A stretch of DNA of 64,000 nt from the NCBI GenBank assembly GCA_947488345.1, contig CANKZQ010000007.1, positions 1 to 64,000 of the forward strand. Reading direction: 5' to 3'. The notes beneath the pieces are model-generated. The model worked only from the letters and a program-made list of their open reading frames with translations, searched no databases and had not been told where the DNA came from. This document shows positions 43,601 through 64,000 of this stretch, piece after piece (the first letter of the stretch is position 1; the number at the start of each line of letters is the position of its first letter). Made by a program: the position numbers and the translations under genes. Origin of the DNA: an uncultured Flavobacteriaceae bacterium. Lineage in GTDB: Bacteria > Bacteroidota > Bacteroidia > Flavobacteriales > Flavobacteriaceae.

Positions 43601-44119
43601 TTAATCTTCTACATCGACTAACAGTTTGTGAAAAGATTTTAGCTTTTCATCTTCGTTTATTAGTTTACTCATACAAGCTTCTAAAAAGAGTAGAAAGGTT
43701 TTTTTCTCATCTTCATTAAAGCCTTCTGTAAGGTATTTTATCACACCTAAACGAGATGGTTGTGTTCTGTTAACCAATGCAATACCCTCTTTGGTAAGTA
43801 TCAATCGCTTTTTCCTTCTATCCAGTTCATCTTCATATTGTTTGATCAAACCCTTATCTAATAATACGCTTATCAAATTGGTAATGTTGGCTCTAGTTAC
43901 ATTTAAAGACTCCGCTAGCTCACTCGCCATAAGTGCCTTGTTATGTTTCTCTCTTTTGAAAAATGGCAAATTCGGGTTGTTGGCCAAATGCAATAATATA
44001 AGCCATTGTTGTGTAGTCAACCCCACTTTTTGATATACATCATCTCCAATTTTCTTTAGCTGATTCGCCAGATCAAAAATGCTCATCACTATAGATTCTT
44101 CAATACTTTTTTCTATCAT
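43601..44119 (-). CDS. MarR-family transcriptional regulator of the adjoining cluster
   Basis: The 172-residue protein has the MarR winged-helix layout. An N-terminal dimerisation helix is followed by LTTQQWLILLHLANNP, the recognition region MASELAESLNVTRANITNLISVLLDKGLIKQ, and the wing DRRKKRLILTKEG. MarR proteins usually repress nearby genes and release DNA when they bind a small aromatic or related ligand. It sits at the edge of the catabolic-type cluster, 50 bp after the nitrilase-like gene, with its own TATATTTG box. The palindromes at 45216, 47481 and 50120 are the obvious candidate operators; that link is inference. Confidence 0.93.
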   Translation of the reverse strand: MIEKSIEESIVMSIFDLANQLKKIGDDVYQKVGLTTQQWLILLHLANNPNLPFFKREKHNKALMASELAESLNVTRANITNLISVLLDKGLIKQYEDELDRRKKRLILTKEGIALVNRTQPSRLGVIKYLTEGFNEDEKKTFLLFLEACMSKLINEDEKLKSFHKLLVDVED

Positions 44120-44149
44120 GTTCTCTTATTTAAATATTTTTAGAGGCTG

Positions 44150-44157
44150 CAAATATA
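44150..44157 (-). promoter_or_regulatory. -7 box of the MarR gene (TATATTTG)
   Basis: An exact TAnnTTTG match on the minus strand, 31 bp before the regulator's start codon. No -33 TTG is present at 19-20 bases, so it may be weak. It allows marR to be expressed independently of the upstream nitrilase-like gene. Confidence 0.5.
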
Positions 44158-44169
44158 CAAGGGGAAACC

Positions 44170-45183
44170 CTAGTTTTGCAGCTTTTTTATAACTTTTAAT
44201 TGTGTTTTTATAAATAAATCTTTGTTAGGGGTTTCATTTTTAAAAGAATTTGCAGGGTAGTGACTAAATGATTGGTATGAAGGAGCGTATAATTCAAAAC
44301 GTTGTCTCGCAATATAGTTTTGCATAGAAACTTTCGATCGATAGTCACGCAAAGCCATAATATCAACATAGCTATTGGCAACCATGCTTTCGCCTGCACT
44401 CGCCTCGGCAAGTACATGTCCTTCAAAATGAACGATCTTTGACCCACCGTTCGTACTTGAATGAGGGATATCAATACCAGCTATTCCACCAGAATTGGCA
44501 GACACGACATAGGCCATATTTTCTATAGCCCTAGCTCTCTTGGCAATTTCTTTATGTGTTAATTGTGGACTACTTGTTTCAGACGACGAATGTAGAAATA
44601 CTTCTGCTCCTCTCATAATCAAACAACGCGCTATTTCTGGATATAAAATTTCTTCTGAAGCTATACAAGCTAAATTGCCCAATTTTGTTTCGGCAACTGG
44701 GAAGAAAGAATCGTCACCGTATATCTTTGTATATTCATCCATTACATCATGTGGAGTCGGAGCGAACATCGAGTTGAGACGACGATATCTAAGTATCAAT
44801 TTTCCTTCATCGTCAATGATGAAGCTACTTTGAAAATACAAATCTGGAAAATGAGCATCGAGTTCATAAAAATTACCCGATAGAAATACCTGTTCCTTCA
44901 CACAAAATTTTTGCATTTGCGTAAACAAGTCATCGTCAATAGCAATGCATGCCTTTTCTTTCCATTCTTGCATATTCTCCCCGAAAGGAAAACTAGTTAA
45001 AAAATACTCTGGCAAAACGATTAGTCTCAAATCAGGACCTAAAAACTTCTTCGCAGCACTAATTTGCGAAAATACCTTTTGTAAGGTTTGTTGCATCACG
45101 GCATAACTAGAATCTCTGTCATTACATGTGTTAATTGCTTGACATTCAGTTTGTAATGCTAAAGATTTATATCGATTTATCAC
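44170..45183 (-). CDS. Nitrilase-superfamily (carbon-nitrogen hydrolase) protein with Ser at the catalytic Cys position
   Basis: The start is GTG at 45183-45181, and no ATG lies close by. The 337-residue protein has no signal peptide. The Glu of the triad is clear in IVLPEYFLTS (Glu59). The Lys position reads LRYRRLN (Arg135 where YRK is usual). Upstream of YPEIARCLIMRGAEVFLHSSSE, six residues before the Pro where the catalytic Cys sits in relatives, there is Ser176 (ACIASEE); Cys173 is three residues earlier. KRARAIENMAYVVSANSGG is the conserved tail. Either a divergent amidase with altered chemistry or a non-hydrolytic member. An operator-like palindrome overlaps its promoter. Confidence 0.85.
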   Translation of the reverse strand: MINRYKSLALQTECQAINTCNDRDSSYAVMQQTLQKVFSQISAAKKFLGPDLRLIVLPEYFLTSFPFGENMQEWKEKACIAIDDDLFTQMQKFCVKEQVFLSGNFYELDAHFPDLYFQSSFIIDDEGKLILRYRRLNSMFAPTPHDVMDEYTKIYGDDSFFPVAETKLGNLACIASEEILYPEIARCLIMRGAEVFLHSSSETSSPQLTHKEIAKRARAIENMAYVVSANSGGIAGIDIPHSSTNGGSKIVHFEGHVLAEASAGESMVANSYVDIMALRDYRSKVSMQNYIARQRFELYAPSYQSFSHYPANSFKNETPNKDLFIKTQLKVIKKLQN

Positions 45184-45211
45184 AAATTATCCGTTTATTT
45201 TATTAAATATA

Positions 45212-45238
45212 CAAAAATAGTTAATATTATTAACTATT
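45212..45238 (-). promoter_or_regulatory. Promoter with 23-bp perfect palindrome (candidate MarR operator 1)
   Basis: AATAGTTAATA at 45216-45226, one centre base, and TATTAACTATT at 45228-45238 form a perfect inverted repeat. On the minus strand it runs into the -7 box TATTTTTG (45219-45212). A bound repressor would block this promoter, which serves the nitrilase-like gene starting at 45183. Confidence 0.7.
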
Positions 45239-45309
45239 AATATAATATATCTTTAATTAATTAACATATTAAATTGCTTACGAGTTAAGCGGTTCTTTGT
45301 TGCCCTTAG

Positions 45310-46380
45310 TTATTCAGAAGTTTCGAAATTTAATTCAGTGATAGGCACATTCTTAGGAGCTTGTTTTCTCTCTATGATTTGCCAACTTACGCCAGCCGTA
45401 TCAGTAAAAACGAAAGACTGTTCTTTAAATTCATTTTCTTGTATTCTTGATGGTTTCAGCTCATGATTACTAACAAGTTCATGAACCATGCTCAGTTTAG
45501 GAGTATAAAAAGAATGGAGCGTAATGCCTTTTTCTCCAATACGTTGATGTGCAGATTTGTTGGTTTTGATACCGCGTGGAATAAAGAATTTCAATTTTCC
45601 GCAAATATTATTGGGAGAAACGAAACCTTGATACCAATGACTAAATCCGGGTTCCATTTGAAAAACTCTTTTAGGCCCTTTTAACCAATCTCCATCAATT
45701 GTAGGTTCCTCTTCCGCAGTTAGCCCTAATGCTGTCGACAAATAGGACATCTGATCCATCGAGGTCGCATTTATTACAAAGTCATGATGCGTGAATTCGC
45801 TTGTTTTTAATTTGGTACCTGACTCAATCGTTCCATAACCCGGGATAACATAACCGTATCGCTGAAAAAAAATATGATTGAAAAATTCACCATAAACGGC
45901 ATTTTCCCTTACCAATATGGGGCGATTAAAAAAATCTCGTTCGCCAGTATTAAGCCCGAAAAGATCATCAGCTATGGGTTCAGTCGGTAGCCAAGGTTTT
46001 TTACCAACATCTCTCGCGGTTTGGTAGATGTCATACAATCTAAAAATATCATTGGTGCGCATAACAGCGATGCGTGATCCAATAGTCTCAACGGGAGCAT
46101 AGCCTATCCCTTCTCCAAGCGGTTTGTCCCATTCTAATATTCTCAATAATCCATGACAATCAATGTCACCATTTTGAAGACGATAAGAGGTTAATTTAGA
46201 TGGCACATCATATATCTTTTGTGCTTGAACTGCAGAAATGGTTTCCTTATTTATTAAGTTAAATCCGAAATCTGCAAAGTACTTTATGGCAAAATTTGCA
46301 TTATCGGTACCGAGCATTACTTCATATACACCACTGATACCAGTATCTGGTAACTTTTGCGTTATTGTTGTTGATGCCAT
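45310..46380 (-). CDS. VOC (glyoxalase/extradiol-dioxygenase fold) family protein
   Basis: The 356-residue cytosolic protein appears to hold two VOC modules, ~16-130 (ISGVYEVMLGTDNANFAIKYFADFGFNLI) and ~195-340 (HHDFVINATSMDQMSYLSTALGL, ending GVSWQIIERK). Members include isomerases, glyoxalases and ring-cleaving dioxygenases; the reaction here cannot be assigned. It is on the same strand as, and 52 bp after, the MDR reductase gene, so probably in its transcript. It is the most divergent of the six VOC proteins in the cluster. Confidence 0.8.
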   Translation of the reverse strand: MASTTITQKLPDTGISGVYEVMLGTDNANFAIKYFADFGFNLINKETISAVQAQKIYDVPSKLTSYRLQNGDIDCHGLLRILEWDKPLGEGIGYAPVETIGSRIAVMRTNDIFRLYDIYQTARDVGKKPWLPTEPIADDLFGLNTGERDFFNRPILVRENAVYGEFFNHIFFQRYGYVIPGYGTIESGTKLKTSEFTHHDFVINATSMDQMSYLSTALGLTAEEEPTIDGDWLKGPKRVFQMEPGFSHWYQGFVSPNNICGKLKFFIPRGIKTNKSAHQRIGEKGITLHSFYTPKLSMVHELVSNHELKPSRIQENEFKEQSFVFTDTAGVSWQIIERKQAPKNVPITELNFETSE

Positions 46381-46432
46381 AAGAAACTAAATAAGAATGT
46401 TGAGCTTAATGTTAAAGTAGACGGTTTTCTCT

Positions 46433-47428
46433 TTATACTGTCAGTACTAATTTACCAAAATTTTCACCAGTATATAACATCTGCAGGGCACTCGGAAAAT
46501 TTTCTAGTCCATGAATAATATGTTCTTTTGGATGTATTTTTCCTTCAGCGATCCAGTCTGCAATTTCTTTTGCTGCCGCTGGCCATTGCGCTAAATAGTC
46601 AAATACGATGATTCCATTGAGATGCCCTCTTGCTGTCACAATTTTCATATAGTTTTTTGGGCCATAGATATTTCCCATATCGTTATATTGTGAGATGGCT
46701 CCGCATATAGTAACACGCGCTCCTTGCGCTAAATTTGCCAGCGCTATATCTAAGATAGGACCACCAACATTATCGTAAAAAATATGAACGCCTTCGGGGG
46801 CATATTCTTTTAATTTAGCGTTGATATCATCAGTTTTGTAATTGATGGCATAATCAAAGCCGCATTCGTTGGTTAAGTAATCACATTTTGCATCAGAACC
46901 TGCTGATCCAATCACAGTACATCCTTTGATTTTAGCAATTTGTCCAACAGTAGAACCTACTATTCCGGCAGCCCCAGAGATGAAAACGGTTTCCCCTTGT
47001 TGTGGTTTTCCTTTTTCTAAAAGACCAAAATAGGCAGTCATACCTGGCATTCCTAAAATACCTAGATGGTAAGAAAGCTTGCCATTTGAAATGTCTAATT
47101 TACTCAAACCGGTTCCGTCAGAAATACAATAGTTTTGAGCTCCTAATAAACCAGAAACATACTGTCCTTCTTGAAAATTTGGGTTCTTTGAGGCGACTAT
47201 TTTACCTGCTGAAAATGAACGCATCACGGCACCAATCTCTACTCCTTTAATATATGTAGTTCCTTCATTCATCCATCCTCTCATTGCTGGGTCTAAAGAG
47301 ATCACATCTATTTTGATGAGTAGCTCGCCGTCTTTTAGTTCTCTTATGTCTTCCGTAAGTAGGTCGAAATTATTTTTTGATGCTGCACCCGTTGGTCGAT
47401 TTGCGAGTATTACTTTTGTATTCGTCAT
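46433..47428 (-). CDS. NADP-dependent oxidoreductase (zinc-independent MDR, leukotriene-B4-dehydrogenase-like), copy 1
   Basis: The 331-residue protein starts with an N-terminal GroES-like domain (LANRPTGAASKNNFDL, DPAMRGWMNEGTTYIKGVEIG). The nucleotide-binding motif FISGAAGIVGSTVGQIAK is at about residues 149-166, followed by NVGGPILD and GRLVLTV-like GKLVLTV at the C-terminus. The structural and catalytic zinc Cys/His of alcohol dehydrogenases are absent. Relatives (CurA, PTGR1) reduce alpha,beta-unsaturated ketones with NADPH. It diverges from the alpha/beta-hydrolase gene across the 107-bp region holding operator 2. Confidence 0.92.
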   Translation of the reverse strand: MTNTKVILANRPTGAASKNNFDLLTEDIRELKDGELLIKIDVISLDPAMRGWMNEGTTYIKGVEIGAVMRSFSAGKIVASKNPNFQEGQYVSGLLGAQNYCISDGTGLSKLDISNGKLSYHLGILGMPGMTAYFGLLEKGKPQQGETVFISGAAGIVGSTVGQIAKIKGCTVIGSAGSDAKCDYLTNECGFDYAINYKTDDINAKLKEYAPEGVHIFYDNVGGPILDIALANLAQGARVTICGAISQYNDMGNIYGPKNYMKIVTARGHLNGIIVFDYLAQWPAAAKEIADWIAEGKIHPKEHIIHGLENFPSALQMLYTGENFGKLVLTV

Positions 47429-47470
47429 AGTTGATCTCTTGTGAATTCGATAATAATTATCGTATAAAAT

Positions 47471-47506: not shown

Positions 47507-47535
47507 ATTTAACTAAATTATATTTAACAACGAGC

Positions 47536-48567
47536 GTGAGTACAAGTAAATATATTATAGTCAATGAGAAACGATTGCATATGCATCTTATGGGCAAAGG
47601 GCCCGCCTTGGTGTTGATGCATCCGTCACCGCATACTTCCGAATTATTAGTGCCTCTTGCAGAGGAATTGTCAGCACATTTTACTACTATATGTATTGAT
47701 ACTCCTGGTTATGGTAAGTCTGATGACTTAGGCTTCAAGCCAAATTCTTTAGAAGACTATACCGAATTTTTGCATGAAGCTTTTGTTCAACTGAATTTAG
47801 TTCAACCATTTTTATATGGTTCAGCGACTGGTGCTCAACTCGCTGTAAGATATGCGTTAAACTATCCTGATCATGTTTCTCATGTTTTTTTAGATAATTC
47901 AGCACATTTTGGTGATGACTTAAGAGCAAAAATACTTGAGAGTTACTTTCCCGATCTTACCCCTCAACTAGATGGAAGTCACTTAACTACAGTTTGGCAG
48001 ATTGTAAGTCAAATTGGGTTATATTTTCCTTGGTGTTTTACTACACCGGAGTATGCATTGAATCGACCACAAATGCCGAAAGAATTACGTCATTATATTG
48101 CAAAAGACTTTTTAATCGCAGGTGCGAAATACGATCACGCCTATAGAGCCGCTTTTTTGCATGAAAAAGGCGAATTCGTGCAAGCTCTAAAGGTGCCCAC
48201 AACGATTTATAATTGGAAGGGGAGTATTATTACGAAATACATTGATGACTTGCTAAAGTTTAACATGCCCACCAATGTCGAATCGATACAATTACCTGTA
48301 AGCAAAGAAGAACGCAATGAGAAGATGGTACAAAACATGATTGCCAAATCTACGGGTGCATTTTCTGACATAAAAAACGTTGAAGATTCCGAAAGATATG
48401 ACTTGCAGCAAAAAATGGAATATGAATTTCCCGATGTACCGAGGCCATCAATATCTGAAGATGGGATGTATCTAAGAGACGCATGGAATATTTTGGCGAA
48501 GAGCAATCCGAAATTAAACCCTGAAGAGATTCAGAGATGTCTCTTAGATTGGTATCAAAGATCATAA
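47536..48567 (+). CDS. Alpha/beta-hydrolase-fold protein without a recognisable catalytic triad
   Basis: The start is GTG 47536; the first ATG (residue 16) would cut the opening strand KYIIVNEKRLHMHLMGKG. The 343-residue protein has the fold's core: ALVLMHPSPHTS, CIDTPGYGKSD, and PFLYGSATGAQLAVRYALNYPDHV (in parts) at the nucleophile elbow. In G-x-Nu-x-G the residue is Ala97 (GSATG), not Ser, and no His occurs after about residue 207, so both the nucleophile and the catalytic His seem absent. Probably a lyase, isomerase, binding or otherwise non-classical member. First gene of the plus-strand run; 10 bp to the next gene. Confidence 0.85.
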   Translation: MSTSKYIIVNEKRLHMHLMGKGPALVLMHPSPHTSELLVPLAEELSAHFTTICIDTPGYGKSDDLGFKPNSLEDYTEFLHEAFVQLNLVQPFLYGSATGAQLAVRYALNYPDHVSHVFLDNSAHFGDDLRAKILESYFPDLTPQLDGSHLTTVWQIVSQIGLYFPWCFTTPEYALNRPQMPKELRHYIAKDFLIAGAKYDHAYRAAFLHEKGEFVQALKVPTTIYNWKGSIITKYIDDLLKFNMPTNVESIQLPVSKEERNEKMVQNMIAKSTGAFSDIKNVEDSERYDLQQKMEYEFPDVPRPSISEDGMYLRDAWNILAKSNPKLNPEEIQRCLLDWYQRS

Positions 48568-48577
48568 AACAATAAGC

Positions 48578-49327
48578 ATGAGAAAACAAGTTTTAGTTCT
48601 ATGTGTTATACTTGCATGTACAAGCTGTAAGGAGGTTGCACAAGAAGAAACAGCTACCTTAACCGACCAAGCTGAAGTGACTGGGCAATGGGATAATTTT
48701 TTGCAGTATTGGCAAGAAAATACAGGAGATGATATTCATCGAGTGGAAGTTAATGAGAAGCATAGCCATTACCATTTAAATATTTCTGAGCAGGGTAAAG
48801 ATAGTATTGAAGTAACTATTAGTAAAGGTCGAAACGGTAAAGATTTTGTTGAAAAGATGAAGTTTTCAAAAGAGGATTCGAAGGAAGCTATTCGTGTCGA
48901 TGCTGACACCTTATTCGTCTTAGGATTAGAACATTTTGAAAATATGACGCCTTATAGATTTATGAGAGCCAGAACTTTTTCGGGTTGGCTAGAATACCCA
49001 ATGCAACAGTATCAAGATAGTGTATATCGTCTAGGGAATTTAGAGATACATGATCAAGGCGGGATGGCCGAAATTGACATTGAGGGAGTTCAATATACTG
49101 CTGAGTTGACCCAGTTGGTTTATGGTAAACGATTGGCGATTATGAAGCTCGCGATTTATGATATGCCGCTAGACAGCGTAAAAATCAATAGTAAATCGAT
49201 AAGTTACACATGGGTGAATCCTGAAGCAAAGCGAATTGGAATTAATCTTCGAAAAATAATTACCGGATGGACATTAATTGAACCTGGTTTTCAAAATCAA
49301 AATACCTGGAGAAAAAAGAAAGAATAG
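48578..49327 (+). CDS. Uncharacterised lipoprotein
   Basis: The 249-residue protein has a lipoprotein signal peptide (CTSC, Cys17, then KEVAQEE). The mature part starts with DNFLQYWQENTGDD and continues as alternating strands; central EHFENMTPYRFMRARTFSGWLEYPMQ and DIEGVQYTAELTQLVYGKRL segments resemble DUF1684-type proteins, but the match is too weak to name. It lies 10 bp after the alpha/beta-hydrolase gene and so is presumably part of the same pathway, acting in the periplasm or at the outer membrane. Confidence 0.75.
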   Translation: MRKQVLVLCVILACTSCKEVAQEETATLTDQAEVTGQWDNFLQYWQENTGDDIHRVEVNEKHSHYHLNISEQGKDSIEVTISKGRNGKDFVEKMKFSKEDSKEAIRVDADTLFVLGLEHFENMTPYRFMRARTFSGWLEYPMQQYQDSVYRLGNLEIHDQGGMAEIDIEGVQYTAELTQLVYGKRLAIMKLAIYDMPLDSVKINSKSISYTWVNPEAKRIGINLRKIITGWTLIEPGFQNQNTWRKKKE

Positions 49328-49366: not shown

Positions 49367-50113
49367 ATGATACATATAGATTACAGGGCCAATGAAATGT
49401 ATGTGGTCGTCGTGGGAGCAAATAGCGGTATAGGGCAGTCACTTTGTAAGCAATTGCTCGAGGCCAATGCCTCAGTCTTTGGCTTAGATATTCAGGAAGA
49501 ATCAACCACTTTAAAGTCCGAAAATTATACTTATTTCCAAGTGAATCCTTTGATCGAAAAAGAGATGAAAAATGTTGTAGAGGAAATTAAGAATGTTACA
49601 CCATGTATTTGTGGATTGGTAAATTTATCGGGCACAATTGATCGTTTTAAATCAATTGAGGAAACAACATTAAAAGAATGGAATACGACTTATGATATTA
49701 GTTTTAAAAGTTGTTTTAATGCAGTGAAGTTATTTCTACCCTTGTTAAAAAAATCAAGTTGTGCCTCCATTGTAAATATGTCTTCTGGTTTAGCATTTGC
49801 AGGACAAAAGAATTATGGGGCTTATGCCACGGCGAAGAATGCTATTATTAGCTTGAGTCGAACTTTAGCCACTGAACTTGCACCGACGATACGTGTGAAT
49901 ACGGTTGCTCCGGGCGCAGTAGACACAAAGTTTATCTATAAAGAAGATGGTACTACACGTTTTGACAAAAAATCTTATGAGCATCTGGTACCTTTAGGTG
50001 CTATTGCAAAACCACAGGAAATAAGTCATGTGATTTTGTTTTTACTAAGCCAAGGAGCAAGTCATATTACAGGACACTGTATTCATGTGAATGGTGGTGC
50101 TTTAATGAGTTAA
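49367..50113 (+). CDS. Short-chain dehydrogenase/reductase (SDR)
   Basis: The 248-residue protein has the SDR set: VVVVGANSGIG (residues 13-23; the usual Thr of TGxxxGIG is Gly or Val here), VNLSG in place of NNAG, NMSSG and YATAK with Tyr153 and Lys157, and RVNTVAPGAVDT. It is an NAD(P)-dependent oxidoreductase of a hydroxy or keto substrate. The start at 49367 keeps a normal-length first strand; ATG 49397 is an alternative, because a TATTTTTA box at 49354-49361 would put the RNA start at about 49367. 39 bp after the lipoprotein gene. Confidence 0.92.
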   Translation: MIHIDYRANEMYVVVVGANSGIGQSLCKQLLEANASVFGLDIQEESTTLKSENYTYFQVNPLIEKEMKNVVEEIKNVTPCICGLVNLSGTIDRFKSIEETTLKEWNTTYDISFKSCFNAVKLFLPLLKKSSCASIVNMSSGLAFAGQKNYGAYATAKNAIISLSRTLATELAPTIRVNTVAPGAVDTKFIYKEDGTTRFDKKSYEHLVPLGAIAKPQEISHVILFLLSQGASHITGHCIHVNGGALMS

Positions 50114-50183: not shown

Positions 50184-51140
50184 ATGTTCGAGCTAAAGAC
50201 AATTTTAGAAGTTATTTATAGCGTAGGAGACCTTGAAAAGGTGAAACACTTTTTCTCTGACTATGGAGGTTTATCTGTCGTAGGTAACTATAAAACAGAT
50301 CGTTCAGTACTTGATTTTTGGAATTTAGACGCTTCCGCGGAAGCAAAAGAAACACTTATTCAGTTTGGTTCGCACCCCAATGGATCGATACGCTTAGTGA
50401 AATACGAGAATGTAGCACAGAAATACATACGCTCTTCTCAAAATCCATGGGACACAGGAGGTATTATGGATATTAATTTACGGGTGCCCGAAGTTGCTCA
50501 AACCTTTAATGAATTGCGCGAATTGGGTTGGCACGGTTTAAGTGATCCTCTGTTACAAAAAATGGGTCCATTCGAACTGTATGATATCCTAATGAAAGGG
50601 TATGATGATATCATTATTGCTTTTACACATCGCGTAGAGCCACCGTTAAAGTTGGCAGAAGGATATAAAATCCCCTCACATGTATATAACTCATCGTTAA
50701 CTGTGAAAAACCTAAAAGCAACCAAGGATTTCTACGTAGATATGCTAGGGTTTTCAGTACTCAATGAATATGAAGTTAAGAAAGATGAGCCGATAGAGAA
50801 TATGTTTGGGATTCCTATGAATATGATAGAAGATGTGACTTGTAAAGCCAGTATATTTTCGTTAGACGGAACAAGAGATGTGATGTTTCAAGCCTGTGAG
50901 TTTGAAGGAGTCGACGGAAGAGATTTTTCGCATTTGGCAATTCCGCCAAATAGAGGGTTACTATTATATCGTTGTGAAGTTGAGCAATTGCAAAACTACT
51001 ATGATTCGCTTTTAACAAAAGGGGTGAAGATACATAAACCTTTACAAGAAATACGAATAGAACCATACGGCCGAGTGCAGTGCTTTGCTATACTAAGTCC
51101 CGACGGGGTTTGGTGGGAATTTTTAGAAACTAATACTTAA
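50184..51140 (+). CDS. Two-domain VOC family protein
   Basis: The 318-residue protein has VOC modules at ~5-150 (LEVIYSVGDLEKVKHFFSDYGGL; WDTGGIMDINLRVPEV) and ~170-315 (VYNSSLTVKNLKATKDFYVDMLGF; IRIEPYGRVQCFAILSPDGVWWEFLE). It is a clear paralogue of the minus-strand VOC protein at 60593-61588, sharing WDTGGI, the LMKG..D.I.AF segment and SPDGVWxEF. The usual first-strand metal-binding His of VOC enzymes is not seen, so the metal site is uncertain. An operator-like repeat precedes it, suggesting ligand-controlled expression. Confidence 0.85.
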   Translation: MFELKTILEVIYSVGDLEKVKHFFSDYGGLSVVGNYKTDRSVLDFWNLDASAEAKETLIQFGSHPNGSIRLVKYENVAQKYIRSSQNPWDTGGIMDINLRVPEVAQTFNELRELGWHGLSDPLLQKMGPFELYDILMKGYDDIIIAFTHRVEPPLKLAEGYKIPSHVYNSSLTVKNLKATKDFYVDMLGFSVLNEYEVKKDEPIENMFGIPMNMIEDVTCKASIFSLDGTRDVMFQACEFEGVDGRDFSHLAIPPNRGLLLYRCEVEQLQNYYDSLLTKGVKIHKPLQEIRIEPYGRVQCFAILSPDGVWWEFLETNT

Positions 51141-57079: not shown

Positions 57080-57493
57080 TTAAACTCCCTTATCAATCGA
57101 AGGTTTGCCTGCTCCATGAATTAAAAAGAAAACACTTAATAATAAGAGCACAATGGCAGAGAAACTCTCTTTCACACCGTGACCTTCAGGGATATGGTAG
57201 CTTAATAATGCGACCATAAAATAAATGATTAACGGAATAGCTGCTAATCTCGACATATAGCCAAGAACTAGTAGTACGTACCCTATGACAACACTCCATA
57301 TACCTAAATAGGCGAAGAACAATGGTACAGGAAATCCTAATCCGGTAAGATTTTCAGCAAATTTATGAGCATAACTTGGTTTGTAAATGCCACTTGAGAG
57401 CGAGGTGACTAGATAGTATAAAAATACTAATCGAAGCACTACTGGTGCGTAGGCTTTAAATTTGTCAAGTTTATCTAGTAGTTTCATAATCAA
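57080..57493 (-). CDS. DoxX family membrane protein
   Basis: The 137-residue protein has four hydrophobic helices and the DoxX pattern APVVLRLVFLYYLVTSLSSGIYK, FAENLTGLGFPVPLFFAYLGIWSVVIGYVLLVLG (in parts) and a final SAIVLLLLSVFFLIHGAGK. DoxX-like proteins are membrane oxidoreductase accessories of poorly known function; some act in thiosulfate or quinone-linked oxidation. It is the last gene of the minus-strand run, 18 bp after the second MDR gene. Confidence 0.85.
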   Translation of the reverse strand: MIMKLLDKLDKFKAYAPVVLRLVFLYYLVTSLSSGIYKPSYAHKFAENLTGLGFPVPLFFAYLGIWSVVIGYVLLVLGYMSRLAAIPLIIYFMVALLSYHIPEGHGVKESFSAIVLLLLSVFFLIHGAGKPSIDKGV

Positions 57494-57511: not shown

Positions 57512-58531
57512 TTAGTCAATTTTTACCATACGGGTACCACCATTTGTACCCTTATATAAGCTAATCAGAGCATTTGGCATTTCTTCTAATCCAATACCGA
57601 TATCTTCCAACGGTTGGATTTTATCTTCACGAATCCACTGCGCCAATTGAGCTTCATATTCACGATAATTCTCTTGAAAGTCATAGATAAAAAAACCTTC
57701 CATCTTTGCATCTTTCAGACCTATTTTATACATGTTCTTAGGACGATGGTACTCCTCTGGCGAAATTAAATACTCCGAAATTCTGCCACAAATAGCAATA
57801 CGGGCTCGTCTATTAATACGGCCTAAAACTTCATCGAGTAATTGACCTCCTACATTGTCAAAAAAGACATCAATTCCATTCGGAAAATGCCTATCTATTT
57901 TTTGATATAAATCAGGTTCTTTATAATCTATCGCTATATCGTAACCGAGTTTTTCGGTCAGCAATTTGCACTTTTTTGCACCACCAGCAATACCTACTAA
58001 TGTTGATGATCCTAATGCTTTGGCAATAAAACCTGCCATGCTCCCCACACTTCCCGCAGCGCCTGAAACGAGCACATGATCTCCTTTTTTCACTTTACAG
58101 ATGTCGCGCATGCCAATTAATGACGTAAAGCCATTCATACCCAAAGCACCAACGCCATATGACGGACTTAAATCATGAGTATCCATTTTATAAGTCATAT
58201 AATAAGGATCGTCTTTAATGACACCATATTCACGCCATCCCAATTTTGTTTGAAGTAAATCGCCAATTTTAAAAGTGGCACATTTACTCTCAATTACGCG
58301 TCCAACTCCACGACCAATCATGACATCACCAACCTCCATAGGGCGTTCAAAAGAAGTTTCATTGGTCATATAACGAAGCATTACTGGTGCCACGCCGAGA
58401 TACAGGGTCTTAACTAATACTTCACCTTCAGAAATCTGAGGAATTTGTACTTCTTCTAACTTAAAATCAGATAATTGAACCAATCCCTGTGGGCGTTTAG
58501 CCATTGTCCATTGCTTCATATTTTTTGCCAT
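57512..58531 (-). CDS. NADP-dependent oxidoreductase (zinc-independent MDR), copy 2
   Basis: The 339-residue protein has the same family layout as 46433-47428: AKRPQGLVQLSDFKLEEV, APVMLRYMTNET, nucleotide motif VLVSGAAGSVGSMAGFIAK (~153-171), FFDNVGGQLLDEVLGRINRRARIAICG and GTNGGTRMVKID at the end. It is not a recent duplicate, because identity is scattered over the length. Having two such alkenal/enone reductases in one cluster suggests two different double-bond or ketone reductions. 6 bp after the VOC gene. Confidence 0.92.
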   Translation of the reverse strand: MAKNMKQWTMAKRPQGLVQLSDFKLEEVQIPQISEGEVLVKTLYLGVAPVMLRYMTNETSFERPMEVGDVMIGRGVGRVIESKCATFKIGDLLQTKLGWREYGVIKDDPYYMTYKMDTHDLSPSYGVGALGMNGFTSLIGMRDICKVKKGDHVLVSGAAGSVGSMAGFIAKALGSSTLVGIAGGAKKCKLLTEKLGYDIAIDYKEPDLYQKIDRHFPNGIDVFFDNVGGQLLDEVLGRINRRARIAICGRISEYLISPEEYHRPKNMYKIGLKDAKMEGFFIYDFQENYREYEAQLAQWIREDKIQPLEDIGIGLEEMPNALISLYKGTNGGTRMVKID

Positions 58532-58537: not shown

Positions 58538-58969
58538 CTAATTCGTTATTTCGAAAAGTAATATTAAATGGCCGTCATAATCTATGAATGCCTGTTCGAT
58601 ATAGGTAACTCCATCTGTACTATCTTCAATCATATCTAAGGTTTCTAAACCCAACGCTTGTATTTGGGATATGGTATAATGTAAATCTTCGACTTTTATT
58701 ACAGAAACGGATGTTCGAATTCCAAGTTGTTTAGGGAGTTGAGCTCCCTTTATTTCGGTCAAGGCAAAAGTTCGTTCTTGTGTCGGACTATCTAAAGCCA
58801 CAAAGGTTGTCGTCGCCTCTGATGGGATATTAAAAACGGGATAGGAGTATGAATCAGAATCTGATTGCTTTATATAGTTCACCGAAAACCCGAGAATATC
58901 ACGATAAATAGTAAGTGATTTTTTGTAATCAGCTACAGCTAACGTATTTCGTTTGTACTCAAGTGACAT
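58538..58969 (-). CDS. Single-domain VOC protein, copy B of a tandem pair
   Basis: A 143-residue single VOC module: RNTLAVADYKKSLTIYRDILGFSV, then DSPTQERTFALTEIKGAQLPKQLGI and YIEQAFIDYDGHLILLFEI. It is very similar to the gene immediately upstream on the same strand (58982-59416), sharing DSPTQERTFALTEI and LPKQ.GI. The first-strand metal His of VOC enzymes reads Asn, while the C-terminal Glu (LLFE) is kept. Substrate unknown. 12 bp separates the two. Confidence 0.85.
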   Translation of the reverse strand: MSLEYKRNTLAVADYKKSLTIYRDILGFSVNYIKQSDSDSYSYPVFNIPSEATTTFVALDSPTQERTFALTEIKGAQLPKQLGIRTSVSVIKVEDLHYTISQIQALGLETLDMIEDSTDGVTYIEQAFIDYDGHLILLFEITN

Positions 58970-58981: not shown

Positions 58982-59416
58982 TTATTTTTCCATCAACTGA
59001 TATAAAACTATTAAATGTCCGTCAAAGTCGACAAAAGCTTGTTCTATAAAGGTAGCATATTCATTTTCATCGGTTTTTGTATCTGTGGTTTTTAGTCCTA
59101 ACGCTTTTATCTGATTGATTACATTGGCCAAATCATCTACTTTAATTACTGAGGCCGACATATGAATACCTTCTTGTTTGGGGAGTTCAACACCTCTTAT
59201 CTCGGTCAATGCAAAAGTTCGTTCTTGTGTTGGGCTATCTAATGTGGCAAAATTTAAATCAGCTTCATTCGGAACATTAAATACCGGATAAGAAAATGAA
59301 TCTTTTTCTGATGGTTGAATATAATTAATGGTGAATCCCAAAATATCCCTATATATCTTTAGAGAACGCTCTAAATCTGAAACACATAGGGTAATTCTTT
59401 TGTATAATAATGACAT
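58982..59416 (-). CDS. Single-domain VOC protein, copy A of a tandem pair
   Basis: This 144-residue protein has the same pattern as its downstream copy: KRITLCVSDLERSLKIYRDILGF, DSPTQERTFALTEIRG, FIEQAFVDFDGHLIVLYQL. In the last strand the Glu metal ligand of the other copy (LLFE) is replaced by Gln (VLYQ). VOC enzymes of this size act as dimers of two modules, so the pair could form a heterodimer, which is inference. 15 bp after the nitrilase-like lipoprotein gene. Confidence 0.85.
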   Translation of the reverse strand: MSLLYKRITLCVSDLERSLKIYRDILGFTINYIQPSEKDSFSYPVFNVPNEADLNFATLDSPTQERTFALTEIRGVELPKQEGIHMSASVIKVDDLANVINQIKALGLKTTDTKTDENEYATFIEQAFVDFDGHLIVLYQLMEK

Positions 59417-59431
59417 ATTTTTGAGGTGTTA

Positions 59432-60580
59432 TTAGTTTGCTTTTTTAGGAGGATTATACCGACTAATGCTATCCATTAATGCTTTCATTTCTTCTCCAGT
59501 TTTTGGAAGTTTATCTTTTTTCATATCTAAATGATTGATCGGAACTTCTTGAAAATATTGATCAAAAACTGGTTTTGTCATTTCTAAGGCATAGTTCGGA
59601 ATTGTTCTATCTTTTCTAAATGCAGCGATCGGAATCTTTGCTTCGACGATGCCGTCATCTTCCTTGCTCGGATGTTTCGCCATAATTTTTCCATCCGGAC
59701 TCACAATGACTGATTCTCCCGCGTTATAGCCGGTGCTAACAGGTAACGTGAAGTTGGCCATTGCTGAATAAAAGTCATTGCTCCATGCAGTGAAAACTAC
59801 ATCTTCTTCGGCAAATAAGGTAGCGGTTCGTAACATGATTTCTGTACCACGCATGGCGAAGGCAGCATAAATAAATGGATCAAATTGTACGGTGCTTACC
59901 GCAATGTTTCCAAACTCTGTTTGGAGTACAGGAAATTCTTCTTCAATACCATATTTTTCGCGATAGGCGTCACGCACGGCTTCAATAGTTGTGGTCGTAA
60001 TTTCTCGAGTCTTATAGAGTCTTTTGATATTTCTTGACTTCCAAAACGTTTTTGCGATTTTTCCATCTCTACCTAAAACAGTATTGATGCTAAGAATATG
60101 ATCTGGCCATTCATTATCTCTAACATAACTTCCAAAAATGACATAGCAATCGCAGGCTTTTGCAATTTTTCCTAAGCGTTCAGTTTCTGCGCCTGGTACT
60201 TCAATGGTAAAAGGTAGTTTTTCTTGGCGGGTTCCTCCTGAGTATCCTGTTAAAGGGAATTCATGAAATAATATGATGTCTGGTTTATCGCCTTCGTTCA
60301 TGGCTTGTTGAGCCATTTTCTCCATATATTTCATGTTTTCATCAAGGCCTTCATTAATAGAAGAAAAACTCGACAATGATTTGACACGTGTTTGCATGAC
60401 TTTTAAAACAATGGTGTCTTTTTCTAGCGCTACCTTATCATAAGTACCATCTGATTTAACCAATTCTGTTGTCGATACTGATGACGTTGGATTAATTATT
60501 TTTTCAGAACTCGTTTCTTTACATCCGCAAAGAACTAATAGATATACGCCTAATAAATATGAAAATAGTTTTGTGTTCAT
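59432..60580 (-). CDS. Exported nitrilase-superfamily lipoprotein with Ser at the catalytic Cys position
   Basis: The 382-residue protein has a lipoprotein signal (LCGC, Cys20, then KETSSEK), unusual for a nitrilase. The domain begins near residue 56 (IVLKVMQTRV). Glu107 is in ILFHEFPLTG and Lys181 in KTFWKSRNI, but the third site reads IAVSTVQFDPF, with Ser229 six residues before the Pro where the catalytic Cys stands in canonical members. AMRGTEIMLRTAT follows as usual. So E-K are kept and C is S. Its cytosolic relative at 44170 shows the same Ser. Likely periplasmic or outer-membrane. Confidence 0.83.
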   Translation of the reverse strand: MNTKLFSYLLGVYLLVLCGCKETSSEKIINPTSSVSTTELVKSDGTYDKVALEKDTIVLKVMQTRVKSLSSFSSINEGLDENMKYMEKMAQQAMNEGDKPDIILFHEFPLTGYSGGTRQEKLPFTIEVPGAETERLGKIAKACDCYVIFGSYVRDNEWPDHILSINTVLGRDGKIAKTFWKSRNIKRLYKTREITTTTIEAVRDAYREKYGIEEEFPVLQTEFGNIAVSTVQFDPFIYAAFAMRGTEIMLRTATLFAEEDVVFTAWSNDFYSAMANFTLPVSTGYNAGESVIVSPDGKIMAKHPSKEDDGIVEAKIPIAAFRKDRTIPNYALEMTKPVFDQYFQEVPINHLDMKKDKLPKTGEEMKALMDSISRYNPPKKAN

Positions 60581-60592
60581 TGTTGTTTTAGT

Positions 60593-61588
60593 TTAGTCTA
60601 TTAGTTCTATAAACTCTATCCAAACGCCATCCGGCGAACGCACAGAAAATGTCTTCAAATTCCCATAGGGCTCAATAGTTATAGTTTGTACATCTGAGTT
60701 TAATTGTAATCCTTTTTCCTTGAGGTTTAATGCATATGCATCTGCATCTCTCACGGGAAAACGATACATTAAAATTCCTAGGTTTGGAGGTTTGGCGAAT
60801 TCAGAACAGTCCTTTCCTTTTAGCTCATTAGTATGTAGATATTCAATAGATCCAAAGTTGTTTTCATCTGGTCTTACAATATCAATTGGGACAGTAATAT
60901 CTTGATTTACATTAGGAGGAATGCCAATAACATTATGTCCAGTATCTCTATCCAGACCTGGTGTTTGAAAAAACAGATGAAACCCTAATTTGTTAACATA
61001 AAAATCATACGAAGCTTCCATATCACCTACGATGACCGATGAATTGAAAATACGGCTTGTTTTCTTCATGTGATCAAAACCTACAAGGGGAGGAGCAAAA
61101 CGTTGCATAAAGGCTATGACAATGCCATCGGGACCTTTCATCAAGACTTCTGAAACATCATAGATGCTAAAGATATAGCGCTTAGGATCTGAAACTCCAT
61201 TCCAACCATCGTCTTGCAATTCTCGATACCAAGAATCCATATCCGGAGTCCGCATGTTTACATCAAAAATGCCACCAGTATCCCAAACATTAGTGGCCGA
61301 ACGAATTTGTTTTTGTTCTACATTTTTAAATTTGACTAAGCGTACAAAACCTTCGTGATCCCCTGCATTTTGAAGTACTGCTTCTTCTATGTCAATAGTA
61401 TCATCAAGATGCCATGCCTTTTTTAAAGAATCCGAACTTGCCTTACGACTTATGAGTTTCCAATCGCAGGTATTTTGAAAAAAATCAATCCACCTTTTTA
61501 AATTGGAGACACTAAAAATGACCTCTTGAAACCCCTTAACGGATGGGTCATCTTTAGAGAAATTTAGATTATGCTTAAAATTATCCAT
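60593..61588 (-). CDS. Two-domain VOC family protein
   Basis: I start at ATG 61588 (MDNFKHN), because the longer frame to 61627 would overlap the upstream DUF1838 gene by 29 bp. The 331-residue protein has two VOC modules (FQEVIFSVSNLKRWIDFFQNTCDW; RIFNSSVIVGDMEASYDFYVNKLGF) and a closing SPDGVWIEFIEL. It is a paralogue of the plus-strand protein at 50184, with the same WDTGGI, IEPYG and SPDGVW motifs, linking the two runs. 12 bp before the nitrilase-like gene. Confidence 0.85.
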   Translation of the reverse strand: MDNFKHNLNFSKDDPSVKGFQEVIFSVSNLKRWIDFFQNTCDWKLISRKASSDSLKKAWHLDDTIDIEEAVLQNAGDHEGFVRLVKFKNVEQKQIRSATNVWDTGGIFDVNMRTPDMDSWYRELQDDGWNGVSDPKRYIFSIYDVSEVLMKGPDGIVIAFMQRFAPPLVGFDHMKKTSRIFNSSVIVGDMEASYDFYVNKLGFHLFFQTPGLDRDTGHNVIGIPPNVNQDITVPIDIVRPDENNFGSIEYLHTNELKGKDCSEFAKPPNLGILMYRFPVRDADAYALNLKEKGLQLNSDVQTITIEPYGNLKTFSVRSPDGVWIEFIELID

Positions 61589-61598
61589 GTATTTATGT

Positions 61599-62453
61599 TT
61601 ATCGACCCCAACCGGCTCCAGCTTCACCTTTTTGCAAGGCTCTAACTTCTGCTACATCTTTCGGAGGATTTAACCATTTTGGTTTGTCCTTTTTTGCCCA
61701 AGCCAACAATTTTTCTGGAAACTCATCGTGACTTTCGACACGCCATGAGTGCAAACGAATAATAGCTTGACCTTCTCCTGCCCAGCTGGGTAGTTTACCA
61801 TAACGCTGCCAGGTCATTTGATAAGGCTCTTCTACCGTGCCTTCTGGATGCATAAAAAAATCATAATTCTCCCACGCCTGATATTGTGCGCCTGATGGAA
61901 GCGGAAAGTCTAAAAATACCTGTGCATTATACACGTAGGTATCTCCCAATTTACGAAATGGGATGCCATCTTTTGCCTTAATTTGTTGCACGCGATCACC
62001 AACTCCTTGTTCGACATCGCCATAAATTTTATTGTCCTCTAGGCGGTAGGTAATCATTTGATAGGGGTAGGCAATTGCTTTCACTTCATTGCCATTATAT
62101 GCTGTTAAAACTTCACCAGTTTCCAGATCTGTGTAAGCAAAGGTCTTTCGAGTAAGATGAATAATTTTGCCATCGGCTTCTTCAGGCCAGATAACTGTTG
62201 AGCTATCGAATCCAATCATACCAAATAACTTTTTACCAGATGGATATTCATGTACATAACCATCGGCAATCCAATGCACCGCTTCACCAGTTCCTGCTCT
62301 TGAATTTACCCAAATCTTTAAAGCTTCTGGAGCTGCTTCATAGGATGCCGTTGTATTAGTTTCTGTAATCTTTTCTGCTATCACAGTCGTGCTTACTTCT
62401 TTTTTACAAGCAATAAGTGCAAATGGGATAAGGAAATAGAATTTTAATTTCAT
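61599..62453 (-). CDS. DUF1838 family lipoprotein, copy 2
   Basis: The 284-residue protein has a lipoprotein signal peptide (LIAC, Cys16, KKEVSTT). The mature part shows ALKIWVNSRAGTGEAVHWIADGYVHEY (in parts), LTRKTFAYTDLETGEVLTAYNG, YPYQMITYRLED and WQRYGKLPSWAGEGQAI, resembling DUF1838 but more distant from copy 1 at 51152. Both are exported, so they likely act on the same periplasmic compound or its product. 18 bp after the flavin oxidase gene. Confidence 0.65.
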   Translation of the reverse strand: MKLKFYFLIPFALIACKKEVSTTVIAEKITETNTTASYEAAPEALKIWVNSRAGTGEAVHWIADGYVHEYPSGKKLFGMIGFDSSTVIWPEEADGKIIHLTRKTFAYTDLETGEVLTAYNGNEVKAIAYPYQMITYRLEDNKIYGDVEQGVGDRVQQIKAKDGIPFRKLGDTYVYNAQVFLDFPLPSGAQYQAWENYDFFMHPEGTVEEPYQMTWQRYGKLPSWAGEGQAIIRLHSWRVESHDEFPEKLLAWAKKDKPKWLNPPKDVAEVRALQKGEAGAGWGR

Positions 62454-62471
62454 GGTGTTTTGGTTTTTATA

Positions 62472-63965
62472 TTATCCGAGCAAATTCATGATTTCAAGGG
62501 CAGCCCGTTCTCCTGATTCCATCGCACCTTCCATCCCACGATTCATCACAGCTGTATGTTCGCCCGCAAAATGTATTCTTTCGATAGGATCTGCGAGGTT
62601 ATTGGCAAATTCGGTGATCTGTCCTGGCTTCCAATAAGCATAGGCACCACCAGCATATGGATTGTTAATCCAATTCCAATAGTACACAAATTTTAAATTT
62701 CCTTTTAAACTAGGTCGCATCTCTTCGAGTGTTTTGGTTACGACTGCAATCGCATCTTGACGTTTCATTTTATTCACTTCGAGTGCTACATTACTATTCA
62801 AAAAGGCGACGCAACTTGTTACCTTATCTGGATTTTGAAGATCATTTTTCAAGGCCATAAAACGGCCTGCTAGATTATCACACCACATACTAGGAGGTAA
62901 TCCATCTTCTTCCCAATACTTTTTTGTAGGCACATAATGAATTTGCACAACAGGGGTATAATCTAAATTTTGAAAACCAGTTTTTTGATTATTGTTGGCA
63001 TCTGGTGAAATTTTGATGTTGCGCAAAGCAGAAGTAGGTAATGTAACCAATGCATATTTAGCCCTCAACTTTTTGTCACTTTCAAGTGTCAGAGTCACAC
63101 CATCTTTTTCAGATGCGATACTTTTGACAGGTGTAGATAATAAGATGTCCTGCTTAAATGCAGCGCCCATCGCCTCAGGAAGCCGCTGATTACCGCCAAC
63201 GATGGCTCCACCTTTACCAGTAGAGGCATTTTGTTGTTCTATCCATGTCATTATTTGAAAGAACATCATGACCGAAATATTCTTCGCGTCAACGCCATAA
63301 CTTGAGTTTGTGTTCATCGCTAACTTTATCGCATCTTCAGAAAATCCTTCCTGTTTGAGGACTGCGTGTACTGATTTGTCCCAATCTTTATATGTCGGAT
63401 TTCGCCAGGCCATTAAGTCTTTTTTTGGAAGTGGATTGAGTTTAGCAAATAGAGGCCAGGCGGTATAGGCGGGTAATGATTTTCTAAATCCCTCCGGTAA
63501 GGTATTGAATTCATGTGTTGGCCAATCGCTAGGTAAAATAAAGTCATTCTTAATTCTATAGATCAATTCACCCTTTCTAGCTTCTGTACGCGGACGCATA
63601 GGGCCCATTTCTACATTGTATTTTTGTGCAGCGTCCAATATTCGTGCATAACCACCTCCGATGCCGTTGGCTCCTAATTCGGGGTGACCTGGTACATTTT
63701 TGTCTTTGACGGTGTGAACACGTCCGCCTAGGCGATCAGTGGCTTCCACAATTTTTACTGTGAATCCAAATTGTTCTAATTGTAAAGCAGCATTCAAACC
63801 AGACAAACCAGCTCCAACGATGAGCACATCTGCATCAAAAGATTCTTTACCCGTATTTAAGCAGGAAGTCAATCCTAAAAAAGGAGTTGCCGCTACAAAA
63901 AGTCCTGTTTTTTTGAGCATCTCCCTGCGCCCAGTATCGTGTCGTTTGTGATTTTCTTTTTTCAT
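62472..63965 (-). CDS. Exported flavin-containing amine oxidase family protein
   Basis: The 497-residue protein carries a Tat-type signal (TGRREMLKKTGLFVAA) with a lipobox-like LTSC (Cys35), so it is probably folded and loaded with FAD before export. The Rossmann motif VLIVGAGLSGLNAAL (48-62), Glu74, RLGGR (78-82) and the C-terminal FAD site HFAGEHTAVMNRGMEGAMESGERAA (in parts) identify the monoamine-oxidase/FAD-dependent family. It oxidises an amine or a CH-CH/CH-OH bond with O2 and releases H2O2, which may explain the peroxiredoxin in the cluster. It is the first visible gene of the minus-strand run; the upstream promoter lies outside the window. Confidence 0.9.
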   Translation of the reverse strand: MKKENHKRHDTGRREMLKKTGLFVAATPFLGLTSCLNTGKESFDADVLIVGAGLSGLNAALQLEQFGFTVKIVEATDRLGGRVHTVKDKNVPGHPELGANGIGGGYARILDAAQKYNVEMGPMRPRTEARKGELIYRIKNDFILPSDWPTHEFNTLPEGFRKSLPAYTAWPLFAKLNPLPKKDLMAWRNPTYKDWDKSVHAVLKQEGFSEDAIKLAMNTNSSYGVDAKNISVMMFFQIMTWIEQQNASTGKGGAIVGGNQRLPEAMGAAFKQDILLSTPVKSIASEKDGVTLTLESDKKLRAKYALVTLPTSALRNIKISPDANNNQKTGFQNLDYTPVVQIHYVPTKKYWEEDGLPPSMWCDNLAGRFMALKNDLQNPDKVTSCVAFLNSNVALEVNKMKRQDAIAVVTKTLEEMRPSLKGNLKFVYYWNWINNPYAGGAYAYWKPGQITEFANNLADPIERIHFAGEHTAVMNRGMEGAMESGERAALEIMNLLG

Positions 63966-64000
63966 TTCTCATCCCATATTAATGGTTCAGCAAAAACATC

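Follow-up and report, generated by a model that had tools for sequence, protein, structure and literature searches.

CpcT and CpeT proteins are known as phycobilin lyases, and bacterial haem oxygenases and related haem-degrading enzymes that open haem have reportedly been described. The anaerobic nicotinate pathway of Eubacterium barkeri includes the dimethylmaleate hydratase DmdAB and a 2,3-dimethylmalate lyase, while the methylcitrate cycle employs AcnD and PrpB. According to one report, the Aspergillus cyclic imidase HxnM, a member of the PuuE-like superfamily related to 3qbu, PuuE and a Pseudomonas putida imidase, opens a cyclic imide, after which an amide hydrolase acts (PMC9304392). Relatives of the bilin lyases, imidases and diacid hydratases stand together in a gene island of an uncultured Flavobacteriaceae bacterium (assembly GCA_947488345.1, genome 3.8 Mb). 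The stretch analysed here, "the window", is the first 64 kb (64,000 nt) of the 220-kb contig CANKZQ010000007.1; the island begins within it and extends over contig positions 43601-116749 (72 open reading frames, ORFs; about 72 kb). Judging from its gene content, it probably encodes catabolism of linear tetrapyrroles (bilins or ring-opened chlorophyll or haem products), by way of maleimides, to pyruvate and acyl-CoA. The imide route itself we consider very likely, and the origin of the substrate from a tetrapyrrole reasonably likely. The fullest version would be a complete, horizontally spread bacterial pathway mineralising linear tetrapyrroles, in which repurposed phycobilin-lyase proteins would capture the bilin, cleavage would yield haematinic acid and alkyl-maleimides, and a "methyl-homoaconitate" branch of imide, half-amide, hydratase and lyase steps, built twice and with interchangeable lyases, would lead on to pyruvate and glutaryl- or propionyl-CoA; for this the chances seem about even.

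As we propose it, a TonB receptor would import the pigment, its presumed cargo, and exported CpcT-type and DUF1838 proteins would bind it. Flavin oxidases exported by Tat may, together with a lipoprotein cytochrome c and with VOC, MDR, SDR and nitrilase enzymes, oxidise, cleave and trim it (order and chemistry are presumptive), the ring carbons arriving as alkyl-maleimides (e.g., haematinic acid) or lactams. Two PuuE/imidase-type hydrolases (PuuE1 and PuuE2) would then open the imide, and a maleamate-amidase-type hydrolase (IsoCh) would release ammonia. LeuC1 and LeuD1 would hydrate the disubstituted maleate (methyl-cis-homoaconitate, if from haematinic acid), CaiB and an HMG-CoA-lyase-type enzyme would split its CoA ester, presumably yielding pyruvate plus an acyl-CoA (glutaryl-CoA, for example), and the pyruvate would pass to the island's own pyruvate dehydrogenase E1 and E2. 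A second set, consisting of LeuC2/LeuD2, an HpcH aldolase and HyuA/HyuB (lactamase/oxoprolinase family), may treat other rings. By our own reasoning from structural formulae, the diacid from haematinic acid would be cis-homoaconitate with one methyl group; were it hydrated and split in the manner of the methylcitrate cycle, the products would be pyruvate and glutarate, with glutaryl-CoA in place of glutarate if the CoA route is taken. The proposed branch resembles that cycle with one carbon more (methyl-homoaconitate to methyl-homoisocitrate to pyruvate and a C5 acid), although the island's aconitase is of another subfamily, the homoaconitase/isopropylmalate isomerase (IPMI) type.

An earlier note on the window had inferred, for a unit of about 20 kb, a single and partly periplasmic pathway acting on a specific complex molecule. 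The cluster (43601-63965) is real, but it is only the left part of the island, which has 49 more ORFs beyond 64000 and is more than three times longer; an end at 64000 was rejected, as dense packing runs on to about 116.7 kb of the contig (97% of the island is coding, and 56 of its 71 gaps are 40 bp or less). The last ORF is a LacI gene (115697-116749), followed by a universal-stress-type gene and the rimP-nusA-infB region, all read by eye. Since LacI adjoins the island only in two genomes of the same genus (G002 and G004), the shared island probably ends at 115683.

The idea of a single pathway is supported by the gene set staying joined in relatives. By reciprocal best matches, 70 of the 72 genes are grouped together in G002 and 68 in G004, as are 64, 63 and 64 in three other genera (G042, G277 and G395, respectively), within 68-71 kb; 59 genes are common to these three, and the window's 23 genes are represented by 21, 20 and 21. 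A looser count, in which two island genes may share one target, gives 66, 64 and 65 of 72 (and 23, 21 and 22 of the window's 23), but the stricter one is preferred. The island blocks are rearranged among the three genera, with the MarR and MDR3/AmdH ends kept. None of 25 control genes (window 1-43500) was found in the stretches from the three other genera; 7 and 4 were present in the same-genus genomes, so only the other genera serve as a control. A neighbourhood comparison that might have revealed independent scatter of these genes showed the opposite: the set is joined in four family genera and one Saprospiraceae genome, and a reduced version of it is joined in gammaproteobacteria; both halves of the island are linked in six family genomes and the Saprospiraceae genome.

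The PuuE2 marker was found in just 4 of 397 sampled family genomes, the window's own included (E 1e-50 or better), and this sporadic distribution suggests horizontal transfer. A scan of named genomes gave 110 PuuE2 relatives, the best 80 of which belong to Flavobacteriaceae, Saprospiraceae, gammaproteobacteria (Paraglaciecola, Pseudocolwellia, NOR5-3, HTCC2148, Halioglobus, Billgrantia, and Alloalcanivorax), alphaproteobacteria, and Acidimicrobiales. IsoCh, PuuE2, and PuuE1 occur together in 61 of these 80 loci; elsewhere at least one is uncalled, cut off, or absent. Profiles of the 72 island families (at least 80 bits) identified 41 within 60 kb of one Saprospiraceae contig, and 17 each in NOR5-3 and two genomes of its order (G787 and G825) and 19 in Paraglaciecola arctica, in regions of 40-60 kb; two stretches each of the Rhodospirillaceae genome G495 and of G759 had 2-7 only, and nine control stretches of 15-43 kb had 0 or 1. 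Genes for CpcT, DUF1838, VOC, CoA-transferase III, and HMG-CoA-lyase-type proteins are found in all four gammaproteobacterial regions, while Nit1, the methyltransferase, and the unnamed P94599 and Mem220 are each found in three, and MFS1 in two. An extra protein of about 190 aa in these regions was considered as CpcT-like and rejected; it is a VOC protein.

Two further proteins of these neighborhoods deserve mention. One (L004:13599-14321; 240 aa, no export signal seen, no clear family) lies beside the cassette, where the copies of several gammaproteobacteria share 65-78% identity with that of the window's genome, and is a good candidate for a core enzyme. The other (L161:3280-4584), inside the gammaproteobacterial region of G825 and, by similarity, of G787, belongs to the arylmalonate-decarboxylase family, which is related to maleate isomerase and would fit maleate chemistry.

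The tetrapyrrole reading is favored because five T-type bilin-lyase relatives accompany the enzymes that alkyl-maleimides of the haematinic acid type would need. Four island proteins exceed the PF06206 cut-off, and one matches cyanobacterial CpcT 4o4o by sequence in the PDB (E 0.0073). Those in the window include a putative CpcT/CpeT (T-type bilin lyase family) lipoprotein with a lipobox (53524-54246, + strand; 69.9 bits, cut-off 21). The fifth (55263-55835, +; 190 aa, no export signal seen) has no Pfam match, misses the PF06206 cut-off, and gave nothing meaningful in profile searches against PDB sequences and the island's CpcT profiles; its fold alone revealed the kinship. Its AlphaFold2 model (pLDDT 89.2; the only CpcT-type protein modelled) matches CpcT 4o4o/4o4s (Z 16.1, rmsd 2.8, 171 residues aligned; 4o4s has bound phycocyanobilin), then Arabidopsis CRL 6lix (Z 15.4) and phage CpeT 5hi8 (Z 14.5), after which matches fall to 10.7. 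These two had been recognized in the earlier note, which overlooked a third, distant relative: a putative lipoprotein (48578-49327, +; lipobox) with an hhalign probability of 95.8% to two island CpcT families. The likeness to described CpcT/CpeT lyases (4o4o, 4o4s, 5hi8) and to CRL is thus one of Pfam family for four island proteins and of fold for the fifth. In contrast to them, the island proteins form a paralogue set encoded among the catabolic genes of a flavobacterium. Four seem to be exported, two (334 and 363 aa) have greater lengths, and lyase activity would not be expected. Export, lipobox, and Tat calls come from a simple script heuristic, which also flagged one clearly false Tat motif, in an MDR reductase.

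The distribution of CpcT bears on a different explanation, that the substrate is some other hydrophobic ring compound (aromatic, terpenoid, or alkaloid) yielding a cyclic imide or lactam, to which the CpcT-type and DUF1838 barrels bind. The CpcT/calycin fold is a generic ligand-binding one (FABP and nitrobindin are among the structure matches), and such barrels could accommodate ligands other than bilins. Outside the family, carriers of the cassette were also searched for CpcT (43 of the 55 loci L080-L134 were chosen, omitting 12 on contigs below 48 kb, and 42 were searched): 20 of 42 genomes have it and 22 do not, so the imide cassette can serve other imides. In addition, the nearest model to HyuA is a caprolactamase. 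Set against this are the five T-type proteins in a single island, together with dialkylmaleate-type downstream steps, and the pattern in the order of NOR5-3, where CpcT occurs in 5 of 145 genomes: PuuE2 is present in all four CpcT-positive genomes other than NOR5-3 itself, and in none of 20 CpcT-negative ones (the first 20 of 140), for which the odds, worked by hand, are 1 in 10,626. Likewise, five alphaproteobacterial metagenome-assembled genomes with cassette records (four labelled Rhodospirillaceae) have 12, 9, 10, 2, and 7 CpcT matches, some of them two per frame. We regard another ring compound as rather unlikely. In Billgrantia, Halomonas, and Alloalcanivorax (L097 and L104-L112), imide cassette genes are present and CpcT is absent from the nine of these ten loci that were searched (all but L109); the cassette there perhaps belongs to a simpler imide pathway, or to scavenging of free maleimides.

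The imide module itself (contig 72270-79668) encodes two PuuE-like hydrolases, an isochorismatase-type hydrolase, a DUF4440 protein, a CoA-transferase III, an AhpD-like (peroxidase-related) protein below its model cut-off, LeuD, LeuC, and an HMG-CoA-lyase-type protein. In the PDB, PuuE2 comes closest to PuuE allantoinase and further proteins of the deacetylase type, 3qbu among them. IsoCh (221 aa, isochorismatase family) best matches 4l07 and N-carbamoylsarcosine amidohydrolase, and its D36, K130, and C163 are each at least 97% conserved in a 40-row alignment; Asp-Lys-Cys is the triad of the family. With such relatives, PuuE, isochorismatase, and HyuAB might instead scavenge imides or ureides resembling hydantoin, allantoin, or creatinine, and the remaining island genes would then form a separate, neighboring pathway. 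However, the two PuuE proteins score 105.2 and 104.7 bits with the allantoinase equivalog TIGR03212, far under its cut-off of 424.6, and allantoinase was rejected as their function; with ureides as substrates, the LeuCD and retro-aldol/Claisen-type lyase encoded alongside would presumably serve no purpose; and the two halves of the island are joined in six family genomes and a Saprospiraceae genome. We consider scavenging of this kind very unlikely.

A parallel is offered by HxnM of Aspergillus nidulans and the imidase of P. putida YZ-26, where imide opening of the PuuE/polysaccharide-deacetylase type is likewise followed by an amide hydrolase (PMC9304392); the island differs in having two different, adjacent PuuE paralogues, followed by hydratase and lyase genes, and its substrate is a predicted one. 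Similarly, 4l07, 1nba, and 3uao are among the top PDB matches of IsoCh, with D-K-C kept, but since its best E-value is only about 6e-26 it appears to form a separate subfamily, with a dialkyl- or carboxyethyl-maleamate as predicted substrate. Of these entries, 4l07 is maleamate amidase and 3uao is NicF.

For the following steps, LeuC and LeuD exceed the subfamily cut-offs of TIGR02086, TIGR01343, and TIGR02087 (homoaconitase/IPMI for LeuC, "LeuD/DmdB" for LeuD), and the cysteines C290, C350, and C353 are conserved. A role in leucine biosynthesis was rejected, with LeuC under the LEU2/leuC and LeuD under the leud/leuD equivalog cut-offs; the genome has further matches on contig C3, in a frame of 465 aa, and on C1, in one of 756 aa. 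The HMG-CoA-lyase-type protein passes the subfamily model NF004283 (298.1 vs. 246 bits), its substrate being predicted only, and CaiB belongs to CoA-transferase family III (233.2 bits with the succinate-glutarate model NF052585, under its cut-off of 750). HyuA has domains PF01968, PF05378, and PF19278, and HyuB has PF02538; the caprolactamase alpha model gives HyuA 549 bits (cut-off 1000), and a caprolactamase-like enzyme would suit a lactam ring.

In a Rhodospirillaceae cluster (L128) and an Acidimicrobiales cluster (L126), LeuC and LeuD are followed by a PrpB-family lyase (297 bits in L128 and 304 in L126; cut-off 354) and then by IsoCh, PuuE2, and PuuE1, with one small ORF between in L126. 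A different lyase at the same place suggests that one and the same reaction, the splitting of a substituted malate, is catalysed. These two clusters resemble the E. barkeri pathway in their LeuC/LeuD-type hydratase and PrpB/ICL-type lyase; they differ in that imide hydrolysis feeds in and that no nicotinate-ring enzymes were noticed, while Bacteroidota and gammaproteobacteria use CaiB and the HMG-CoA-lyase-type enzyme. L128 and its relatives (L127, L129-L131, and L133) contain a methyltransferase, LeuCD, a gene of about 300 aa (PrpB-type in L128), the imide cassette, and five VOC7-like genes; L128 also has a RidA-family protein and an enoyl-CoA hydratase. The genomes of the alphaproteobacterial clusters L127-L131 and L133 have up to 12 CpcT matches.

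As to the pigment, haematinic acid is reported among the in vitro oxidation products of chlorophyll a, and maleimides are cited from senescent leaves and sediments (PMC7318184). Several points weigh against a tetrapyrrole substrate, or against the pathway as drawn. The same paper found haematinic acid in leaves, but maleimides were undetectable there (PMC7318184). No enzyme that would form maleimides from a bilin could be identified. More than half of the cassette genomes searched outside the family do without CpcT, as noted, and a further 28 Bacteroidota genomes that do have a CpcT match are all without PuuE2. The PuuE, CaiB, PrpB-type, and HyuA matches all fall under equivalog cut-offs, and HyuA/HyuB were not found in the gammaproteobacterial regions or the Saprospiraceae stretch examined. 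Only one of the 12 island or cassette genomes searched has a canonical haem oxygenase, and only two have the PaO domain. A closed macrocycle would need some other opener; because these enzymes are mostly absent, an already open bilin is the simplest substrate. Both were rejected as ring openers, being absent from most carriers searched. A haem-oxygenase-family gene (G467:C6:1940175-1940723) does lie about 12 kb from the NOR5-3 imide cassette.

The exported proteins are less clear. One DUF1838 model (pLDDT 74) has no fold match above noise (all Z <8; CpeS 4tq2, at 7.2, is found among porins), which also counts against pigment binding; a bilin-lyase-like barrel was tried for this family and gave only Z below 8. 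The other four models had pLDDT 62 or less. The one paper found on DUF1838 reportedly concerns a Streptomyces antibiotic cluster. The amine-oxidase-type proteins and the cytochrome c are candidates for periplasmic oxidation. Among VOC proteins, only 50184-51140 was aligned to a structure: Tyr and Asn stand opposite the two His of 2p25, which are its metal ligands; VOC extradiol dioxygenases have 2-His-1-Glu ligands. Ring cleavage by dioxygenases is at most a candidate role for these proteins.

The earlier note had allowed that the cluster either degrades or makes its compound. Degradation is favored because of the downstream imide, amide, hydratase, and lyase steps and the pyruvate dehydrogenase. 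A cluster making and exporting a bilin-like or maleimide-containing metabolite would be in keeping with its MFS transporters, methyltransferase, SDR/MDR, and SnoaL-like proteins, which are frequent in biosynthetic clusters. On the other hand, no carrier protein, synthase, or condensing enzyme was found among the proteins scanned (part of the 72), the TonB receptor, hydrolases, CoA-transferase, lyase, and pyruvate dehydrogenase are catabolic, and a methylmalonyl-CoA block adjoins the island in three genera; biosynthesis is highly improbable. This block (L135:4413-11638; biotin carboxylase/carboxyltransferase of propionyl-CoA-carboxylase type, and methylmalonyl-CoA mutase) is at the opposite island end in G395 from that in the other two genera. 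It was not found in the stretches examined from the window's genome, G002, or G004, a further point against the proposed route. Of the features of a polysaccharide utilization locus, neither SusD nor a glycoside-hydrolase family accompanies the TonB receptor among the island proteins scanned (part of the 72).

In titles and abstracts of the open-access literature, outside which lie most subscription journals and all bioRxiv preprints, no description was found of bacterial mineralization of the pyrrole rings of chlorophyll. The parts belong to known families, but the assembled pathway, with its presumed substrate, appears new as far as this partial coverage goes. Chlorophyll is made and degraded at about 10^12 kg per year (PMC7318184). 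Linear chlorophyll- and haem-type pigments are a major natural pool of carbon and nitrogen. If the tetrapyrrole reading is correct, PuuE1/PuuE2/IsoCh with exported CpcT would be marker genes for pigment turnover in sea water and sediments, functions would be gained for DUF1838, CpcT-like, and several unnamed families, along with enzymes for maleimides and lactams, and the long-standing question of who breaks tetrapyrrole rings, and how, would become directly testable in a culture-collection strain.

Within the window, the cluster contains 23 ORFs rather than the 21 or so first counted. Its two runs converge tail to tail at 57076/57080, as had been noted, and 17 of 22 intergenic gaps are 40 bp or less; the others (50, 126, 52, 107, and 70 bp) all lie within the first seven genes, at the MarR end. 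Most of the proposed families (MarR, two CN_hydrolases, two MDR reductases, SDR, alpha/beta hydrolase, peroxiredoxin, SUMF1-type, MFS, DoxX, amine oxidase, and two DUF1838) exceed their Pfam cut-offs. Five of six proposed VOC proteins do so as well; the sixth (45310-46380, -; 356 aa, family undefined) has no Pfam match and no PDB match up to E 10, with a best profile match to other VOC families of 7% probability, and its assignment to VOC was rejected as unsupported; it is 74-80% identical in three other genera.

The MarR-family regulator (43601-44119, -; PF12802/PF01047) is at the island end in five related genomes. It is followed by a nitrilase-superfamily amidase/nitrilase with no export signal seen (44170-45183, -; PF00795), which has relatives scoring 450-462 bits in all but one of the gammaproteobacterial regions, and, past the 356-aa protein, an MDR-type reductase (46433-47428, -; PF16884/PF00107). 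The rightward run has an alpha/beta hydrolase (47536-48567, +; PF00561), the distant CpcT relative, an SDR (49367-50113, +; PF13561), and the two-domain-length VOC protein aligned to 2p25 (50184-51140, +; PF00903 on the C-terminal half), in which the first canonical His position is not kept. Then come a putatively exported DUF1838 protein, modelled as a beta barrel (51152-52051, +; PF08894, E 1.3e-67), a peroxiredoxin (52062-52529, +; PF00578), and a putatively exported SUMF1-fold protein with an N-terminal hydrophobic stretch (52554-53504, +; PF03781). A second VOC protein of two-domain length passes weakly (54261-55262, +; PF00903, 24.4 bits, cut-off 20.6) and stands between the two CpcT-type genes; an MFS transporter (55838-57076, +; PF07690) ends the run.

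The opposing run consists of a DoxX membrane protein (57080-57493, -; PF07681), missing from the islands of G002, G277, and G395; an MDR-type reductase (57512-58531, -; PF16884/PF00107); two single-domain VOC proteins (58538-58969 and 58982-59416, both -; PF00903); a putative nitrilase-superfamily lipoprotein, presumably periplasmic (59432-60580, -; PF00795, lipobox); another VOC protein of two-domain length (60593-61627, -; PF00903, 60.4 bits in two stretches); and a putative DUF1838 lipoprotein (61599-62453, -) that barely passes PF08894 (25.5 bits, cut-off 25.0) but has an hhalign probability of 97.8% to another island DUF1838. The last is a putative Tat-exported flavin amine-oxidase-type protein (62472-63965, -; PF01593, Tat RR by the heuristic), nearest in the PDB to monoamine oxidase B (1.5e-31); it and the island's two others of this type were read as lipoproteins by eye.

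Past the window, some assignments were made by eye or by similarity to relatives and others by profile scan. Contig 63962-69109 encodes a DUF1838 protein, a CpcT, a second Tat-exported flavin amine-oxidase-type protein, the lipoprotein cytochrome c, and an MDR reductase, and 69106-72230 an amidohydrolase, an SDR, and an SBF-type transporter. Beyond the imide module, 79778-101384 has an aldehyde dehydrogenase (assigned from a scan of its counterpart in G002), a lipoprotein with DUF3108-like and VOC-like parts (by HMM), a DUF1838 protein, the TonB receptor, a flavodoxin-type reductase, alpha/beta hydrolases, pyruvate dehydrogenase E1 and E2, further VOC and MDR proteins, a CpcT, and an MFS transporter. 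Contig 101648-115683 has a DUF3598-like protein, LeuC2, the third amine-oxidase-type protein, LeuD2, an HpcH/HpaI aldolase, an SDR, and HyuA, followed by an FAD_binding_2 protein, HyuB, a methyltransferase, a SnoaL-like protein, and a CpcT.

A tRNA-Gln (window 41549-41621), a possible integration site, lies about 2 kb outside the MarR end, with a carbohydrate kinase (41886-43394) in between. Elsewhere in the window, three large DUF5916 proteins are encoded in tandem (15887-23903), two with a CBM9-like N-terminal domain. At 1312-9689, a protein of 1900 aa has a CHU_C end of the type IX secretion kind, and an OmpA/PD40 protein lies downstream; the GC content there is 0.36-0.435, starting higher than most of the window.

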